The notes below the pieces were generated by a model. It did no database searches and was not told where the DNA came from. It saw only the letters and a program-made list of their open reading frames with translations. Of a stretch of DNA of 59,933 bases, positions 1 to 59,933 are shown piece by piece. This stretch comes from Ruminococcus sp. (GTDB lineage: Bacteria; Bacillota; Clostridia; Oscillospirales; Ruminococcaceae): assembly GCA_017542125.1 (NCBI GenBank), contig JAFXXU010000057.1, forward strand, positions 1 through 59,933, in the 5' to 3' direction. Positions within the stretch are counted from its first letter, which is position 1. Every line of letters starts with the position of its first letter. The position numbers and the translations under genes were made by a program.

Positions 1-137
1 ACGCCATCTGCTTGCCAGCTTTCCGTCATATTACCCAAATTCTCCTTGCCGGGCGCCAGCCCGCCTGCGTCGAATTTAGGCAATCTGACGAAAACCTGGA
101 CTTCGCATCTGACGCACAGGGGTCGTGCGGTGTTGCC
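1..137 (+). mobile_element. MITE-like element, copy A (left end missing)
   Basis: This is the right-hand ~137 bp of a repeat found five times in the window; its left terminus lies outside. It ends with the family terminal repeat GTGCGGTGTTGCC. It carries the short form at the first variable site and the GGGC-GCCA-GCCC hairpin in the middle. It has landed inside the 3' part of an acetyltransferase gene on the minus strand. No transposase is encoded, so any mobility would be supplied in trans (inference). Confidence 0.85.
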
Positions 138-470: not shown

Positions 471-680
471 GGCAACACCGCACAACCCGCGGCTGACGCC
501 TCTGCACGCCATCTGCCGTGTCAAGCCTGCTTGACGACCGGCTTATCCGTCATATTACCCAAATTCTCCTTGCCGGGCGCCAGCCCGCCTGCGTCGAATT
601 TAGGCAATCTGACGAAAACCTGTGCCTCAACGCCAGTTGAGGTTGCGCATACTGACGCACAGGGGTCGTGCGGTGTTGCC
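471..680 (+). mobile_element. MITE-like element, copy B (210 bp)
   Basis: A complete element bounded by inverted 18-bp ends (GGCAACACCGCAC... and ...GTGCGGTGTTGCC). It carries two hairpin cassettes that copy A lacks: GTCAAG-CCTG-CTTGAC near the left and CCTCAAC-GCCA-GTTGAGG near the right. Flanks are TATA on the left and TAAA on the right, an imperfect 4-bp duplication. It lies between the acetyltransferase start and the double-hairpin terminator of the anti-sigma gene. Confidence 0.9.
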
Positions 681-9544: not shown

Positions 9545-9735
9545 AGATAATTAACAAGTAATAATTAATAATTAATAATTAACAATTCAGGTATCGCCTG
9601 CGGCGATGTATATTTTTCCGCGAGGCGGGCAGAAAAAAGTCGGCGCAGAGCGCCGACTCCATAATTAGAAATTGTAAATTAGAAATTGTAAATTAAAAAT
9701 TATTAATTATTAATTATAAATTATTAATTATCAAT
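9545..9735. repeat. AT-rich imperfect tandem repeats around a GC hairpin core
   Basis: Runs of taattaataattaacaatt-type repeats flank a core with GGTATCGCCTGCGGCGATG and the hairpin AGTCGGCG-CAGAG-CGCCGACT. A related element lies at 41250-41400, sharing the GGTATCGCCTGCGGCGATG hairpin, A/T-rich or tgcaatgcaca-type arms and a ..CTCCRTAATT boundary. No coding potential. It looks like a small non-autonomous or palindromic repeat between the ohrR-like promoter and the lipoprotein stop. Confidence 0.65.
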
Positions 9736-19176: not shown

Positions 19177-19195
19177 ACTTTTAGTATGATACTAA

Positions 19196-19367
19196 GGCAA
19201 CACCGCACAACCCACGGCTAACGCCTCTGCACGTCATCTGCTTGCACTTTTTCCGTCATAGCACACAAATTCTCCTTGCCGGGCGCCAGCCCGCCTGCGT
19301 CGAATTTATGCACTCTGACGAAAAAATTGACTGCGTATCTGACGCACAGGGGTTGTGCGGTATTGCC
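19196..19367 (+). mobile_element. MITE-like element, copy C (172 bp)
   Basis: The shortest and most diverged copy, without cassettes at the first and third variable sites. It is bounded by GGCAACACCGCAC and GTGCGGTATTGCC and flanked by a perfect 4-bp duplication CTAA (19192-19195 and 19368-19371). It sits between promoter and coding region of the YfhO gene. Confidence 0.92.
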
Positions 19368-19503
19368 CTAAAGGTGATCGTAAAGCTCGGAGGAAATTAT
19401 AACAGCGGAGAAGACCAAAGATCCAGAGTTTTAAAGCTGATCTGTTAATATGAGCTTTCAGAGCTTCAGGATCGGCTATGATTATCGGCAAAGGAGGGTG
19501 CTT

Positions 19504-26380: not shown

Positions 26381-27964
26381 TTATTTCCTCAGTTTCATAG
26401 CAAGCGAATAGCTGCGTTCTCCCGCTTCAAAGGGAGGGCGTCCCCAATAGTAGCGCCTGCCGTAGTAATTGGGCTTGAATTCAGCCGCGGGGGGCTCGGT
26501 AAAGCCGGCCAGCCTGATGAGCGTTTCAAGCTCGGCATCCGCCTCGGCGTAGGAGAGCACGCGCTCAGCGGGGGGGTCTTCCTGCGGCCCGGGTGTTTCC
26601 GATGCTTCCTCCGGAGCGGGGGTGGGCTCTTCGGGAGCCGGTCCCTCTGTGGCTTCGGGGAGCTCTATGGGCGCGAAGGCTGGGATGGCTTCTCTCTCGG
26701 CGGGGGGCTCGATAAGCATTACCGTCCGGGAGGTGAGCGCCAGCTGCACGGAAAAGGGCTTTACGGGCTTGTCCTCGGGGAGGGGCTCGCTTTCGGCGGG
26801 TTTATCTTCCACGGCGGGGAGGGGCTCGCTTTCGGCGGGTTTATCTTCCTCGGCGGGGAGGGGTTCGCTTTCGGCTGGTTTATCTTCCTCGGCGGGGAGG
26901 GGCTCGCTTTCGGCGGGTTTATCTTCCACGGCGGGGAGAGGCTCGCTTTCGGCGGGTTTGTCTTCCGCGGCGGGGAGGGGTTCGCTTTCGGCGGGTTTGT
27001 CTTCCACGGCGGGGAGGGGTTCGCTTTCGGCGGGTTTGTCTTCCGCGGCGGGGAGAGGGTCGCTTTGGGCGGGTTTGTCTTCCGCGGCGGGGAGGGGTTC
27101 GCTTTGAGCGGGTTTGTCTTCCACGGCGGGGAGGGGTTCGCTTTGAGCGGGTTTATCTTCCGCGGCGGGGAGGGGTTCGCTTTCGGCGGGCTTATCTTCC
27201 TCGGCGGGGAGGGGTTCGCTTACGCTTATTGTTATATTATCATCAAAGGGCGGGTCGCCCTCGCGGGGTTCGGCACGCAGCTCGATGACGGTGTTATCGT
27301 CGTTTAAACATATCCTGCCGGACTTGGTCAGTTCCAGCACGGCGAGGAACGCCGCGATGCGCTCGGAACGGTCCTCCATCCCGTCATAGAGGGCGGACAT
27401 ATCGAAATGCCCGACGGAGAACAGGCGGTGCAGGATATCGGTTATCTTGGACTCCACCGAAACTATGCGGTGGGAGACGATGGGCGAGAACATAGTTGCG
27501 CGCAGGGGCTTATACTCCTTGACCTTAGAGGATATGGCGGTGTAGGCGTCGAAGAGCTCCTGCTTGTCGTGCTCGCGGGTGTACTGCTTGTTTACGGGCA
27601 GCTTTACGGGCTCTCTGACGAAGATGAGCCCGCCGGCATAGCTCTCGCGGAGCATCTGTGCTGCCAGCTTGCAGACGGAGTATTCTATCAGGCTGCCCTG
27701 GAGCTCCTTTTTGAGCTCCTCTGCTTCCTCGGGCTGGGGGAGCAGGTAGCAGGTCTTGATATATATGAGCCGGGCGGCCATCTCCAGGAAATCGGCAGCC
27801 TGCTCGTAGTCCTTGACATCGAGGCCTTCTATATAGGTGAGGTACTGCTCCAGCAGCAGGCTGATCTCGATATCGTAGATATTCAGCTTGTGCTTGGTGA
27901 CGAGGTGCAGGAGCAGATCCAGGGGGCCCTCAAAGGTCTCGAGCTTGAATGATATGCTTTCCAT
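26381..27964 (-). CDS. scpA: Segregation and condensation protein A with a long repeat-rich tail
   Basis: The kleisin of the SMC complex. Residues 1-~245 are a full ScpA: N-terminal FKLETFEGPLDLLLHLVTKH, which binds the Smc neck, helical linker, and C-terminal winged helix (ESKITDILHRLFSVGHFDMS ... RICLNDDNTVIEL). Typical ScpA ends here at ~250 residues; this one goes on to 527. The extra part holds eleven 13-residue repeats (SEPLPAxEDKPAx), a Pro/Glu-rich stretch, and a conserved-looking end (YAEADAELETLIRL..., YYGRRYYWGRPPF). The start ATG follows GAGGGGGAT. Confidence 0.93.
   Translation of the reverse strand: MESISFKLETFEGPLDLLLHLVTKHKLNIYDIEISLLLEQYLTYIEGLDVKDYEQAADFLEMAARLIYIKTCYLLPQPEEAEELKKELQGSLIEYSVCKLAAQMLRESYAGGLIFVREPVKLPVNKQYTREHDKQELFDAYTAISSKVKEYKPLRATMFSPIVSHRIVSVESKITDILHRLFSVGHFDMSALYDGMEDRSERIAAFLAVLELTKSGRICLNDDNTVIELRAEPREGDPPFDDNITISVSEPLPAEEDKPAESEPLPAAEDKPAQSEPLPAVEDKPAQSEPLPAAEDKPAQSDPLPAAEDKPAESEPLPAVEDKPAESEPLPAAEDKPAESEPLPAVEDKPAESEPLPAEEDKPAESEPLPAEEDKPAESEPLPAVEDKPAESEPLPEDKPVKPFSVQLALTSRTVMLIEPPAEREAIPAFAPIELPEATEGPAPEEPTPAPEEASETPGPQEDPPAERVLSYAEADAELETLIRLAGFTEPPAAEFKPNYYGRRYYWGRPPFEAGERSYSLAMKLRK
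26792..27220 (-). repeat. 39-bp minisatellite inside scpA
   Basis: Eleven exact-length units of 39 bp (429 bp), each coding SEPLPA(E/A/V)EDKPA(E/Q), plus a partial twelfth down to about 26765. Units differ by a few bases, so copy number is free to change in frame without breaking the protein. Confidence 0.95.
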
Positions 27965-29065: not shown

Positions 29066-29100
29066 TAGCTCACCGAATTTCGGTCGGTAAGGGGCGTCCC

Positions 29101-29480
29101 GCCCGAACTATCGCATTGGTCGACAGAATAGGAGCGCGCCCAGTTTCGGGGGCTTTCCGGTCGCCCCCGAACCCCTTCGGGCACGCCCCGCCGATCGCAC
29201 TGGTCGGCAGGCTGAGCGCACGCCCAGTTTCGGGGGCTTTCCGGTCGCCCCCGAGCCCCTTCGGGCACGCCCCGCCAATCGCACTGGTCGGCAGGCTAAG
29301 CGCACGCCCAGTTTCGGGGGCTTTCCGGTCGCCCCCCGAACCCCTTCGGGCACGCCCCGCCAATCGCACTGGTCGGCAGGCTAAGCGCGCGCCCAGTTTC
29401 GGGGGCTTTCCGGTCGCCCCCGAGCCCCTTCGGGCACGCTCCGCCAATCGCACTGGTCGGCAGGCCGGGAGCACGCCCCG
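29101..29480 (+). repeat. 84-bp tandem repeat array
   Basis: Four units about 84 bp long plus partial ends. The marker CAGTTTCGGGGGCTTTCCGG begins at 29141, 29225, 29309 and 29394; each unit also has CCCCTTCGGGCACGCCCCGCC and ATCGCACTGGTCGGCAGGCT. One related unit occurs alone at ~57800-57870. Open frames run through it on both strands because the unit is a multiple of three, but they have repeat-only sequences and no ribosome sites. Confidence 0.92.
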
Positions 29481-29707
29481 CTTTATTCCGAGCGAAGCTG
29501 AAGAAGAAAGATCGACCTCGCAGTTTTGGCCTTTGTGCCTTGATGCTTGCTTTGCCGTGAAAAAAATAGAAAAGGTTAAAAAAATAATACAAAAAAGCCA
29601 CGCCCGCCCCTTGCCTTTTTGGATGAAATGTGCTATAATGATTAAAACTGTGCATCGTCAGTTTTTGCGGCTTTGCCGCCAGTATATTGTAAAGGAGTAG
29701 GTTATTT
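29481..29707 (+). promoter_or_regulatory. Leader and promoter of cellobiose phosphorylase
   Basis: The promoter is TTGCCT (29611-29616), 17 bp, TATAAT (29634-29639), with AAAGGAG before the start codon. Upstream, modules CCGCTTTATTCCGAGCGAAGC and GGCCTTTGTGCCTTGATG are shared with the leaders at 47.99-48.05 kb and 57.92 kb respectively. Confidence 0.7.
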
Positions 29708-33906: not shown

Positions 33907-35052
33907 TCAGAACTGATCGCCGATGGTATGCTCCTTTTCGGGGTCGGACTCGGGATCGGGATACTGACCAACCATTTCGGAGTCCTCGTCCTCGGCATAC
34001 TGAGCCCACTGAACTTTTTTGCCCTCGACATAGAAGGAAACTGTGCCGGAGTCAGAGCCGTTTTCTTCCATTGCAGTTTTAACTGCCTTTTGCAGAGGGT
34101 CGCTGGTATCGAGATCATCCACGTCAACGGGGCCGCAGAGACCGTCATTGATCTCTTTTCTTTTGCCGTCGGCTATAAGCCAGGATATCTCGCTGTTTAC
34201 GGTGGTAAATACCAGCTTGGCAGCAGTGTTTACGGTTTTCAGCTTCGACTTGCCGACGTACTCGTCCAATGCGGAGGCTGACTTGGAATCGGCCTCGGCA
34301 TCGCCCTTATCAAAGGTATAGACAATGGAGCGTGTGCTGGTCTTGATGGTGAGGACGAGCTGATCGTCCTTGAACTTGGCGGTCGCCTTGGATTTATCCT
34401 TGTCGATCTCAACGGTGTAGGTGTCGTCGTCCTTTTCCCAGGAGAAGTCCTGGGTCTCATCGCCGAGGGCAATCTTACCTGTGCCGTCGGACTCGAATTC
34501 TGCTTTGAACAGTCCGGCGAAGCTTACGCCGAATCTTTCCTCATACTCCTCGGCGGTATAGGATTCGCCGCCGGAGGCCATCTTTGTGCAGTGCCACTTG
34601 CCGACGATATCGTCTCCGCCGCCTTTCAGGAAGAAGAGGATCAGGAACACTGCCAGGCCGATAACTGCCAGTGCAGCCACGGTGATGATGATGATCTTCT
34701 TGTTTACGCCCTTGGCGCCGGGCACGGTATTCTGCATGGGGACGGCTGCATAGCCTGCGGGTACGGCTGCGGGGTCATAGTAGCCCTGCTGCGGCTGCTG
34801 ATACTGGGGCTGCTGCGGCTGCTGGTACTGGGGTTGCTGCGGCTGCTGGTGCTGAGGCTGCTGCGGCTGCTGATACTGGGGTTGCTGCGGCTGCTGGTAC
34901 TGAGGCTGCTGGGGCTGCTGATACTGGGGCTGCTGAGGCTGCATCTGGGGCTGAGGCTGGGGAGCGGGAGCCGCCTGCTGGATGGGAGTACCGCAGCCGG
35001 TACAGAACTTGGCGTTCTCGGGGAGAGAAGCGCCGCAATTCGGACAAAACAT
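33907..35052 (-). CDS. Zinc-ribbon protein with Gln/Pro repeats and one membrane helix
   Basis: A 381-residue protein. The N-terminal zinc ribbon (CPNCGASLPENAKFCTGCG, four Cys) is followed by ~60 residues of YQQPQQPQ repeats, one membrane helix (IIIITVAALAVIGLAVFLIL) and an outer domain starting DDIVGKWHCTKMASGG, which resembles lipocalin/DUF-type single-copy domains that report lipid-like ligands. The function is unknown. The ribosome site is AGAAAGAAGGATATCT. It is transcribed alone. Confidence 0.8.
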   Translation of the reverse strand: MFCPNCGASLPENAKFCTGCGTPIQQAAPAPQPQPQMQPQQPQYQQPQQPQYQQPQQPQYQQPQQPQHQQPQQPQYQQPQQPQYQQPQQGYYDPAAVPAGYAAVPMQNTVPGAKGVNKKIIIITVAALAVIGLAVFLILFFLKGGGDDIVGKWHCTKMASGGESYTAEEYEERFGVSFAGLFKAEFESDGTGKIALGDETQDFSWEKDDDTYTVEIDKDKSKATAKFKDDQLVLTIKTSTRSIVYTFDKGDAEADSKSASALDEYVGKSKLKTVNTAAKLVFTTVNSEISWLIADGKRKEINDGLCGPVDVDDLDTSDPLQKAVKTAMEENGSDSGTVSFYVEGKKVQWAQYAEDEDSEMVGQYPDPESDPEKEHTIGDQF

Positions 35053-41249: not shown

Positions 41250-41400
41250 ATGCAATGCACAGTTATCAATGCACAATGCGCAATGAAGGTATCGCCTGCG
41301 GCGATGTATATCTGAACGCTTCGCGTTCAGATTGCGCATCTCGCGCAGACTGCTTTTTGCAGGCGCACTCCGTAATTGTGCAGTTGTGCATTGAAAAAGC
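41250..41400. repeat. Hairpin repeat in place of tmk
   Basis: Arms tgcaatgcacagtt / cagttgtgcattga enclose the hairpins GGTATCGCCTGCGGCGATG, CTGAACGCTTCGCGTTCAG, TGCGCATCTCGCGCA and CTGCTTTTTGCAG. It shares the first hairpin and its boundary with 9545-9735. No coding potential. It lies between the decarboxylase and darA. Confidence 0.75.
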
Positions 41401-45064: not shown

Positions 45065-45153
45065 TGTTCATCACCGCGCTGCGAAGCAGCGCGGTGAAAG
45101 TGCGAAAAACGGTATATCTTCCCCGCCCGGCGGCGGGGGGATATACCGTTTTT
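45065..45153. repeat. Double-hairpin repeat, copy 2 (terminator)
   Basis: The same order as at 695-780: TCACCGCGCTG / CAGCGCGGTGA, then AAAAACGGTATATC / GATATACCGTTTTT. The loop of the first hairpin differs (CGAAG against GG) while both stems are kept. It terminates the deaminase gene and lies 6 bp from MITE-like copy D. Confidence 0.85.
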
Positions 45154-45159
45154 GCTTGA

Positions 45160-45350
45160 GGCAACACCGCACGACCCGCGGCTAACGCCTCTGCACATCA
45201 TCTGCTTGCCAGCTTTCCGTCATATTACCCAAATTCTCCTTGACTTGCGTCAGCAAGCCTGCGTCGAATTTAGGCAATCTGACGAAAATCTGTGCCTCAA
45301 CGCCAGTTGAGGTTGCGCATACTGATGCACAGGGGTCGTGCGGTGTTGCC
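45160..45350 (+). mobile_element. MITE-like element, copy D (191 bp)
   Basis: Bounded by the family ends and a perfect 4-bp duplication TTGA (45156-45159, 45351-45354). It has the CCTCAAC-GCCA-GTTGAGG cassette on the right. In the middle the usual GGGC-GCCA-GCCC hairpin is replaced by CTTGC-GTCA-GCAAG, so sequence differs while pairing is kept. Confidence 0.93.
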
Positions 45351-45457
45351 TTGAAATAAGTTCTTTCACAGGCGGCTGTGAGAGATGAACTATTTTGTCC
45401 GGTTATGGCTGTATTCGTAGACGATGAACAGGTAGAAAACCGCTGCTGCAAGATTTG

Positions 45458-57747: not shown

Positions 57748-57794
57748 CGGCAGAAGCTAAACGTCAAGGCACCACGCCCGGATAACAGTGTTGA

Positions 57795-57984
57795 ACGGCA
57801 GGCATGGAGCACGCCCCGTTTCGGGGGCTTTCCGGTCGCCCCCGAACCCCTTCGGAAGGTTTGCTGCCGGACGGAAATCGCTTGCGAGTGCAGTCGAGGA
57901 GTATTGTTCGACGGGCGGTTTATGGGCTTTGTGCCTTGATCATTTCTTTGTTTGCACTTATTATTTTGTAAAGGAGCCTTTGCT
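57795..57984 (+). repeat. Repeat-derived leader of the two-component operon
   Basis: Contains one unit of the 84-bp repeat (TTTCGGGGGCTTTCCGGTCG, CCCCCGAACCCCTTCGG), the AAATCGCTTGCGAG module of blocks A/B and GGCTTTGTGCCTTGATC, shared with the cellobiose phosphorylase leader. AAAGGAG precedes the start codon at 57985. No clear -10/-35 pair was found. Confidence 0.75.
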
Positions 57985-58659: not shown

Positions 58660-59726
58660 TCAGAAGGAAACCCTCCGAAAGCACAAAGAGGATCATCGTT
58701 GAGAACTACGGCTCGGTGGTGCGGAACCTCTCGGCTTACGTTTTTCTGATCATCCTGCTGGCTTCGCTGCTGGCTCTGGGTATGCTCTATCTGCTGAGGC
58801 TTCTGGGATATTTCCCCTCCCGTGCCGAGGCGCCGCTGATCTATATGATAATCTTCATCATCACCAGCGCCATCATCGGGACGATCATAGCTTATATAGT
58901 CTCCAAGCGGATACTTACGCCCCTTGCAGAGCTTAAAGCGGCTATCAACGAGGTGGAGAAGGGGAACTTCGATGTAAGGGTTGACGGAGAGGGTACCCCG
59001 GACGTTTTCAAGGAGCTTATCGAGAATTTCAACAAGATGACCGCCGAGCTGGGCGGCATAGAGATGTTCCGCTCCGACTTCATCAACAGCTTCTCGCACG
59101 AGTTCAAGACGCCGATAGTCTCCATAGAGGGGTTTGCGAGGCGTCTGAAAAAGGACGACCTGCCGGAGGAAAAGAGGCGGGAGTACATCGACATCATCAT
59201 TTCAGAGTCCAAGAGGCTGACGGGGCTGGCCACCAATATACTGATGCTCAATAAGCTGGAAAATCAGCAATACATCAGCGACAGGGTGAGCTTTTCGGTA
59301 GACGAGCAGCTTCGCTCCTGCATACTGCTGCTTGAAAAGGAGTGGACGCGGAAGGGGATAGAGTTTGATATCGACCTTGAAGAGCTGGAACTGTTCACCA
59401 ATCAGGAGCTGCTCTCACAGGCGTGGCTGAACATCATCGGCAACTCGATCAAGTTCAGCGGTGAGGGCTCGACGATCACAGTAAAGGGGTACAAGAGAGA
59501 CAACCGGATCCGCATCAGCATAGCTGATGAAGGCGAGGGTATGGACGAAGAGACGATAAAGCACATATTTGAGAGATTCTATCAGGGTGACTCGGCGCAC
59601 GCTTCGGAGGGGAACGGCCTGGGACTGCCTTTAGTAAAGAGGATAATCGAGCTTTGCGGAGGAACGATAAGAGTAGAGTCGCAGAAGGGCAAGGGCACGG
59701 TATTTACGGTGTTCTTTAAGGTATAG
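58656..59726 (+). CDS. Membrane sensor histidine kinase
   Basis: A 356-residue kinase: two membrane helices (YVFLIILLASLLALGMLYLL; IYMIIFIITSAIIGTIIAYI) with only a ~15-residue outer loop, a HAMP domain, the phospho-His box (FSHEFKTPIVSIEGFARRLK), and a HATPase with N, G1 (DEGEGMDE), F (IFERFYQGD) and G2 (EGNGLGLPLVK) boxes. The tiny outer loop suggests an intramembrane or envelope-stress signal. Its TAG stop borrows its G from the first base of mobile element copy E. Confidence 0.95.
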   Translation: MIRRKPSESTKRIIVENYGSVVRNLSAYVFLIILLASLLALGMLYLLRLLGYFPSRAEAPLIYMIIFIITSAIIGTIIAYIVSKRILTPLAELKAAINEVEKGNFDVRVDGEGTPDVFKELIENFNKMTAELGGIEMFRSDFINSFSHEFKTPIVSIEGFARRLKKDDLPEEKRREYIDIIISESKRLTGLATNILMLNKLENQQYISDRVSFSVDEQLRSCILLLEKEWTRKGIEFDIDLEELELFTNQELLSQAWLNIIGNSIKFSGEGSTITVKGYKRDNRIRISIADEGEGMDEETIKHIFERFYQGDSAHASEGNGLGLPLVKRIIELCGGTIRVESQKGKGTVFTVFFKV

Positions 59727-59933
59727 GCAACACCGCACAACCCGCGGCTGACGCCTCTGCACGCCATCTGCCGTGTCAAGCCTGCTTGACGACCGGCTTA
59801 TCCGTCATTATTACCGTGTCAACTTGTTGACACTATTCTCCTTGCCGGGCGCCAGCCCGCCTGCGTCGAATTTAGGCAATCTGACGAAAACCTGGACTTC
59901 GCATCTGACGCACAGGGGTCGTGCGGTGTTGCC
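59726..59933 (+). mobile_element. MITE-like element, copy E (208 bp)
   Basis: A complete element ending exactly at the window end. It has the GTCAAG-CCTG-CTTGAC cassette and, at a further site, GTGTCAAC-TT-GTTGACAC, which no other copy here has. The right target duplication cannot be seen. The left flank is TATA, as in copy B. Confidence 0.93.

Follow-up and report, generated by a model that had tools for sequence, protein, structure and literature searches.

Exchangeable hairpins of a mobile Ruminococcus repeat as optional arms of a conserved predicted RNA fold

Five copies of a repeat in a single contig of Ruminococcus sp. differ from one another by whole hairpins at fixed sites. Are these hairpins mobile cassettes in their own right, or parts of a larger structure? 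The window analysed here, 59,933 nt long, is the whole of contig C66 of a 2.9 Mb genome in 91 contigs. A sequence-only reading had proposed a mobile repeat family with 18-bp inverted ends and interchangeable palindrome cassettes; all five copies (A to E) lie where it had placed them, as do their hairpins (Table 1). Copies A and E sit at the two ends of the contig, so that A has been cut short by the assembly and the sequence to the right of E is missing. Two perfect 4-bp target duplications had been announced, and both are present: CTAA flanks copy C (19192-19195 and 19368-19371) and TTGA flanks copy D (45156-45159 and 45351-45354). Copy B, located between TATA and TAAA, has none. The inverted ends are real, but only 13 bp of them are identical, the rest being imperfect (base 14 is A or G). 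The end motif GGCAACACCGCAC, with at most two mismatches, occurs 9 times in the window for 1.18 expected, and nine occurrences were reached in 0 of 100 shuffles.

Table 1. Copies of the repeat in the window and their hairpin arms; the minus strand is that of the predicted RNA.
Feature	Position	Strand	Description
Copy A	1..137	minus	incomplete; short left block, GGGC-type central stem, short right block
Copy B	471..680	minus	210 bp, full length; long left arm, short second site, GGGC central stem, long right arm
Copy B, left-site arm	520..535	minus	GTCAAG-CCTG-CTTGAC
Copy B, central stem-loop	575..586	minus	GGGC-GCCA-GCCC; apical stem of the predicted RNA fold
Copy B, right-site arm	625..642	minus	CCTCAAC-GCCA-GTTGAGG
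Copy C	19196-19367 (19192..19371 with duplications)	minus	172 bp; all blocks short
Copy D	45160-45350 (45156..45354 with duplications)	minus	191 bp; TTGA duplication
Copy D, central stem	45244-45257	minus	CTTGC-GTCA-GCAAG
Copy D, right arm	45295-45312	minus	
Copy E	59726..59933	minus	208 bp, last base is the contig end; GGGC central stem, short right block
Copy E, left arm	59775-59790	minus	
Copy E, second-site arm	59816-59833	minus	

The family is abundant in its own genome, where the end motif with at most one mismatch is found 254 times (136 + 118), for 1 + 1 with a reversed-pattern control, and where two gapped patterns list full copies with exact ends, 43 for one and 7 for the other. Many contigs of this genome terminate within copies of the repeat; these elements fragment the metagenome assemblies of the genomes that carry them. 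A longer end pattern is present in 9 of 16 genomes of the genus, with 5 to 254 matches each, and in 2 of 45 genomes beyond it, with 1 or 2 matches. Among the matches listed, the contigs bearing the pattern are mostly MAGs named Ruminococcus sp., with the rumens of sheep, goat and roe deer as sources, and include uncultured Clostridia, Chakrabartyella piscis and, with single matches, unrelated bacteria. The Chakrabartyella chromosome harbours a more diverged family of 160-162 bp, with identical ends and a similar layout of stems. When a phage collection was queried with copy D, 11 records were obtained, corresponding to six human faecal contigs labelled phage and to five Aeromonas phages, whose 21-nt matches were taken as chance. 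All five of the faecal contigs examined (of six) hold full elements, which constitute a third version of the repeat, and a second query (L416) returned 5 records, identical to the faecal contigs found with copy D. One contig matched in a collection of viral contigs, and a plasmid collection gave no match for two DNA queries. The expectation that many further genomic copies exist is thus confirmed in the genome itself, in relatives of the genus, in Chakrabartyella and in the human gut.

Target duplications argue for mobility. They are perfect over 4 bp in 83 of 110 copies, compared with a mean of 32.7 and a maximum of 43 in 2000 trials of random flank re-pairing, and are not perfect in the other 27; the 110 copies have both flanks available and their left end correctly placed, five of 115 having been dropped for a wrong left end (83/115 before). 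The duplicated words are TTAA (48), TAAA (14), CTAA (6), TATA (4) and nine others. Before filtering, 89 of 153 pairs agree over 4 bp and a single one over 5 bp, and in the wider loci from the order and the class a duplication was recognised by eye in 19 of 44 evaluable copies. Together with the copy number, these duplications support the proposal of a mobile repeat family. Elements range from 171 to 230 bp and their length variants are not multiples of three, so that, judged by length only, they contain no transposase gene of their own. Of 73 copies, 21 overlap an ORF of at least 100 aa.

The search for a transposase with matching ends was successful in part. A sister genome (G014) contains a 660-bp element with a shortened IS5-family transposase (L434, 1280-1939), with ends GGCAATACCGCACAA and GGCAACACCGCACAA and TTAA at each side, whose terminal 15 nt (GGCAAYACCGCACAA) are identical to those of the repeat. 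Its product, a DDE protein, scores 155.4 bits with NCBIfam transpos_IS5_4 (cut-off 140) and 79.7 bits with PF01609. This remnant is a single, internally deleted case, and an intact IS5 with these ends did not turn up in the material examined, the Ruminococcus genome of the window being without PF01609 match. Among 11 genomes searched with the PF01609 profile, 5 have a match; the 9 matches include one place with the ends, on contig C195 of G014 (two matches). The IS5 group uses a 4-bp target of the YTAR kind, which TTAA and CTAA fit, and which TAAA, TATA and others do not. By tblastn, the remnant is related to the transposase of ISBmu23 in phage KS5 (40.8% identity; ends GGAAACACTGATCAAT and GGAAACGCTGATCAAT, CTAA at each side) and to ISXfu2 (end GGAAGGTCTGATCAAC, CTAG); a search of the viral contigs with the protein found no relative.

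Several candidates for an autonomous element were rejected. In 219 loci and the window, seven end pairs lie 450-4000 bp apart with equal 4-bp flanks, and none was accepted: by eye, those of L044, L172, L192 and L209 join the ends of separate elements that are neighbouring or adjacent, the pair of L209, which is the largest, covers ordinary genes, and the other pairs were taken as chance. In the complete Chakrabartyella genome (100 of 104 end matches), a 1461-bp candidate contains ordinary genes, and two further candidate stretches show no transposase by eye. In another complete genome (G144), none of the end matches (32 of 32) is paired at 0.6-3 kb, as judged by eye.

How variable are the hairpins when many copies are compared? 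The fetched loci provided 199 end pairs, of which 151 passed a core filter, the 48 failing pairs being short derivatives or chance pairs. Twenty of the filtered rows come from Chakrabartyella, including one chance pair, which leaves 19; among the 131 others, 121 copies were parsed, and the 10 unparsed rows comprise two non-elements, three rows with a false outer end, and five real copies with deletions or substitutions. In the parsed copies, the left block measures 10 or 29 nt (15 in one case), the second 10, 26/27 or 30 nt, the central 16 or 35/36 nt, and the right 15 or 34/35/37 nt, two right blocks of 22 nt being an artefact of an early parse anchor. These blocks form 24 combinations among the 121 copies of the genus. 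At the second site the alleles are GTGTCAAC-TT-GTTGACAC or ACGTCATC-AAA-GATGACGT, at the central site GGGC/GCCC, CTTGC/GCAAG or AAGGC/GCCTT, with CAGGC/GCCTG and CATAC/GTATG in the human-gut copies, and at the right site CCTCAAC/GTTGAGG or GCTCAA/TTGAGC. Alleles of one site may thus be wholly different in sequence yet still paired, and the description of discrete hairpin blocks at fixed sites, with pairing kept while sequence is not, applies throughout the parsed set. That hairpins change as units and not gradually is true of the block lengths at all four sites, but some central alleles differ little (ACTTGC..GCAAGC against CCTTGC..GCAAGG), and stepwise change exists alongside block change.

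In the genome of the window, all four combinations are found for the left-second, left-central, left-right and central-right pairs of sites, and not for the second-central and second-right pairs. The presence of all four combinations, with identical arm sequences, points to recombination between copies. One further locus of this genome (L451, G000:C79:2050-2500) joins the long left arm to the ACGTCATC-type second-site hairpin, a combination absent from the 121 parsed copies.

The nature of the hairpins becomes clearer when the opposite strand to the one first described is considered. This minus strand is predicted to fold better, into one long branched hairpin, in 121 of 121 Ruminococcus copies (mean -107.5 vs -81.6 kcal/mol), and it has the higher predicted stability in 5 of 5 copies from the human gut and in 19 of 19 from Chakrabartyella. 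Sequence similarity, end patterns and patterns containing one oriented heptamer (TCTGACG) served to gather the Ruminococcus copies, and those of Chakrabartyella were gathered by their ends; none of these criteria scores the fold. For copy D, the minimum free energy is -112.6 on the minus strand (z -11.9) and -86.0 on the plus strand (z -7.7); when the ends of four copies (18 bp) were kept fixed and the interior shuffled, z lay between -5.7 and -8.7 for the minus strand and between -2.2 and -4.0 for the plus strand. Across the 121 copies, G.U occupies 856 cells of the predicted pairs and A.C 101; an A.C pair here is a G.U pair on the opposite strand, so that the excess of G.U identifies the strand.

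Whether the stems co-vary can be answered positively. In an alignment of ten sequences (five Ruminococcus and five human gut, from which the structure itself was derived), 97.8% of the cells of 67 pairs are paired and 25 pairs show two-sided changes, a result matched by 0 of 500 shuffles; sliding the partners lowers pairing to 34-45%. A covariance model trained on the minus strand, which gives copy C a score of 185.6 bits on that strand, detects the fold at E <= 1e-4 in two overlapping samples, one from the order (49 of 394 genomes, 33 of 169 genera) and one from the class (23 of 391 genomes, 15 of 223 genera), with at most 7 candidates scored per genome. In 48 rows outside model building, 93.6% of the cells are paired, G.U and A.C stand at 318:37, and 58 of the 67 pairs have a two-sided change in at least 2 sequences, the class-wide alignment being fitted to the structure model (12 of 75 rows, on the opposite strand, were dropped, and 48 of the remaining 63 counted). 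A second class of ends of the RNA elements (GGAAGCACTGATTAAATC, GTAAGCGCTGATTAAATA) resembles by eye those of ISBmu23 and ISXfu2. One RNA core therefore occurs with different ends, which look like those of different IS5-family members. Rfam reports a single tRNA in the window, one chance miRNA match far below cut-off in the region of copy D, and tRNAs only in the loci of six relatives.

The variable hairpins have a defined place in this fold. Left and right arms are predicted to face each other where the lower stem meets the middle stems, the second-site arm interrupts the upper middle stem, and the central site corresponds to the apical stem-loop, which is extended in some copies. In predicted folds, the arms form hairpins in all 59 occurrences tested (17/17, 11/11, 12/12, 18/18 and 1/1), and with long blocks 73-95% of core pairs are retained on average per combination, with 63% for the lowest copy. 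The variable sites correspond to peripheral arm positions, which explains why variation is found there. On these predictions, one conserved fold carries the hairpins as optional arms, and these have been recombined between copies. The notion of interchangeable palindrome cassettes thus survives in the mosaic combinations, but the palindromes do not look like independent mobile units and appear instead as optional arms of a fold of the opposite strand.

The most probable explanation, in our view, is that of a non-autonomous, IS5-driven element (a MITE) encoding a strand-specific structured RNA, with arms exchanged between copies. Its full forms, about 172-230 bp, would be moved in trans by IS5-family transposases, which would recognise the element ends and duplicate 4 bp of target, TTAA being the commonest. 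The minus strand would specify a long folded RNA, with a basal stem made of the terminal repeats, an adjacent small side hairpin, middle stems and an apical stem-loop. Arms would probably be born or lost as whole hairpins, via foldback template switching during DNA synthesis, and may then be reshuffled between copies by recombination or gene conversion. From the present comparisons we infer transcription of the RNA strand, mobilisation in trans, this mechanism of arm birth, and a benefit of the fold to the lineages that multiply. Against this explanation, a scan of two stretches gave no sigma-70-like promoter, no intact IS5 partner came to light in the genomes searched, and core-less short forms with duplications exist.

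A bolder reading, which we hold to be rather unlikely, goes further on this last point: the element would be a class-wide structured RNA, apparently unnamed, with selection acting on its own mobility. The fold would promote multiplication of the IS5-driven element, perhaps through an effect on the transposase or its message, or by rendering insertions tolerable; resident copies would decay neutrally, and the core would be re-fitted with local IS5 ends, its arms being exchanged as modules. 

Evidence for the main explanation comes from variants at paired positions. Those shared by at least 4 copies keep pairing in 32 of 45 cases, compared with 17 of 51 for private variants (Fisher p 0.00025). 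Shared variants show linkage inside subfamilies, and some of the private ones may be assembly errors. A random single change would leave the pair intact in 36% of cases (transitions weighted 4), and the shared variants scored as the opposite strand keep pairing in 22 of 45. The fold was thus preserved in those lineages that multiplied, whereas individual copies drift. The difference holds in the other genomes (24/11 vs 12/30, p 0.0006), and is not significant in the genome of the window taken alone (22/8 vs 15/8, p 0.56).

Alternatively, the repeat could be a pure DNA palindrome, the fold being a by-product of template-switch correction in cruciforms or quasi-palindromes, with no RNA under selection. 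The arms are indeed near-perfect palindromes, and one 79-bp copy (L144:866-944), with TTAA at each side, represents an almost exact foldback of one end via the right-site arm, as template switching would yield. However, correction at the DNA level has no strand preference, whereas G.U exceeds A.C more than eightfold and the same strand is the more stable in every Ruminococcus and Chakrabartyella copy collected without fold scoring, which makes this explanation quite unlikely.

A strand preference and a conserved fold would be accounted for without transcription if the folded strand were single-stranded DNA recognised by a recombinase. Integron attC sites and REP/RAYT hairpins are folded single-stranded substrates of this type. 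The orientation of the copies relative to flanking genes, which is random (20, 18, 17 and 16 of 71, with genes defined by ORF length only), is compatible with such a role. Yet 4-bp duplications, and an IS5-type DDE remnant with the same ends, indicate ordinary double-strand cut-and-paste, and G.T pairs in DNA are weaker than G.U pairs in RNA; we regard this possibility as very doubtful.

The elements might also have been domesticated by their hosts as parts of untranslated regions (transcript stabilisers, RNase III targets or terminators), the arms tuning their effect on neighbours. Copies do lie near predicted genes, at median ORF-based distances of 82 and 55 bp. BOX, RUP and SPRITE are thought likely to affect co-transcribed genes (PMC3049150), and small mobile repeats can carry RNA motifs used in mRNA regulation (PMC2229807). 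Random orientation, however, speaks against a directional role for the neighbours, private variants appear unconstrained overall, although 15 of 23 stay paired in the genome of the window, and no terminator-like site was seen in two copies scanned. Such a function thus seems distinctly improbable.

Finally, that the hairpins are independent mobile palindromes inserting into the repeat, as whole-unit differences at fixed sites might suggest, is hardly tenable: the left-site hairpin occurs at 50 exact places genome-wide and all 45 distinct contexts examined lie within the element, seven arm motifs searched in 445 fetched sequences (1.56 Mb, mostly around elements) have the expected element flank in 160 of 161 distinct contexts, the remaining one being within an element by eye, and the arms substitute for a few bases instead of being inserted with a duplication.

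How does the proposed IS5-driven element with a structured RNA compare with known systems? REP and REPIN sequences, mobilised by RAYT, lack a target duplication and depend on a tyrosine transposase, whereas the present element has 4-bp duplications and a DDE-type partner remnant. ERIC and Correia elements, put forward in the sequence-only reading as the nearest analogues, are likewise short, dispersed, non-autonomous, MITE-like repeats (PMC2229807), but belong to other hosts, the comparison being one of descriptions. BOX elements are closer, since a modular composition is described for them: boxA, boxB and boxC, plus D, E and F in S. suis (PMC3049150). They share with our element modularity, terminal inverted repeats, target duplications and a predicted RNA structure, and their optional internal module is predicted to interact little with the remaining fold (PMC3049150). 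Compared by description, BOX is streptococcal with boxB in tandem, while our arms are mostly single at four sites; the strand-specific fold, the class-wide covariation and the ends matching an IS5-family remnant also set the present element apart. BrickBuilt elements of Porphyromonas gingivalis have IS5-family ends and interior repeats predicted to form stem-loops, but these internal repeats are of 23 nt, the duplications differ in length, and the portion of the source drawn on mentions no RNA core shared across genera (PMC4596501). IStrons are DNA transposons carrying a structured RNA (PMC4227781), in that case a self-splicing group I intron ribozyme joined to an IS, in contrast with about 170-230 nt, no gene and no Rfam match here. 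Non-autonomous repeats driven by insertion sequences, their RNA folds, their modular make-up and IS5-ended MITEs are already known, and modular MITEs such as BOX are the nearest in style; searches of an open-access library gave no description of this element family. Bacterial MITEs are usually regarded as relics of insertion sequences, whereas here the fold of the RNA strand is kept across genera while terminal repeats and arms are exchanged. This makes it testable whether a structured RNA aids the spread of a DNA transposon, and provides a natural data set for the gain and loss of RNA helices as units.

Short forms of the element are also found. Five 60-bp forms (L076, L087, L125, L126 and L211) have one common junction, and four of them a perfect duplication; other core-less forms with duplications measure 33 bp (L134:4691-4723), 50 bp (L395, G023) and 79 bp (the L144 foldback). 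The core is thus probably dispensable for transposition, unless it was lost after insertion, and these forms suggest that movement does not strictly require the RNA core. A tandem duplication of the right arm occurs once, at L108, outside the 121 parsed copies, and none is present in the parsed block lists.

Matches restricted to the core (model positions 26-134) were considered as a stand-alone ancestral RNA gene, and this was rejected since they are embedded in larger repeats, treated here as a side family. Such a repeat with an RNA core is found in L385-L391 (G068, G184, G217 and G339), and is about 280 bp long in the two genome pairs compared. It includes a segment resembling a tRNA T-arm (GGGTTCGACTCCC), ARAGORN reporting no tRNA gene, and in L387 a second core is present on the opposite strand. 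Two other arrangements were noted. In the complete genome G144 (L408, G144:415265-415637), two 29-bp hairpins with the element end sequence bound about 370 bp that contain many short hairpins, and at G339:C30:7784-8652 (L367) three RNA elements follow each other head-to-tail with a spacing of about 348 bp, forming a local tandem array.

The window contains other repeats. A second dispersed repeat with a terminator-like hairpin (GCAGCGCGGTGAAA.TGCGAAAAACGGTATATC...) adjoins copies B and D (714-785 and 45086-45150), and another is present in two copies with a AGGTATCGCCTGCGGCGATGTATAT core (9565-9633 and 41263-41331). An array of 39-bp units extends over about 680 bp (26659-27341), and a CTG-rich, imperfect array of short units (34762-34977) perhaps encodes a repetitive protein segment. 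An 84-bp tandem array (29080-29483) has a dispersed copy, 78% identical, 28 kb away at 57768-57855.
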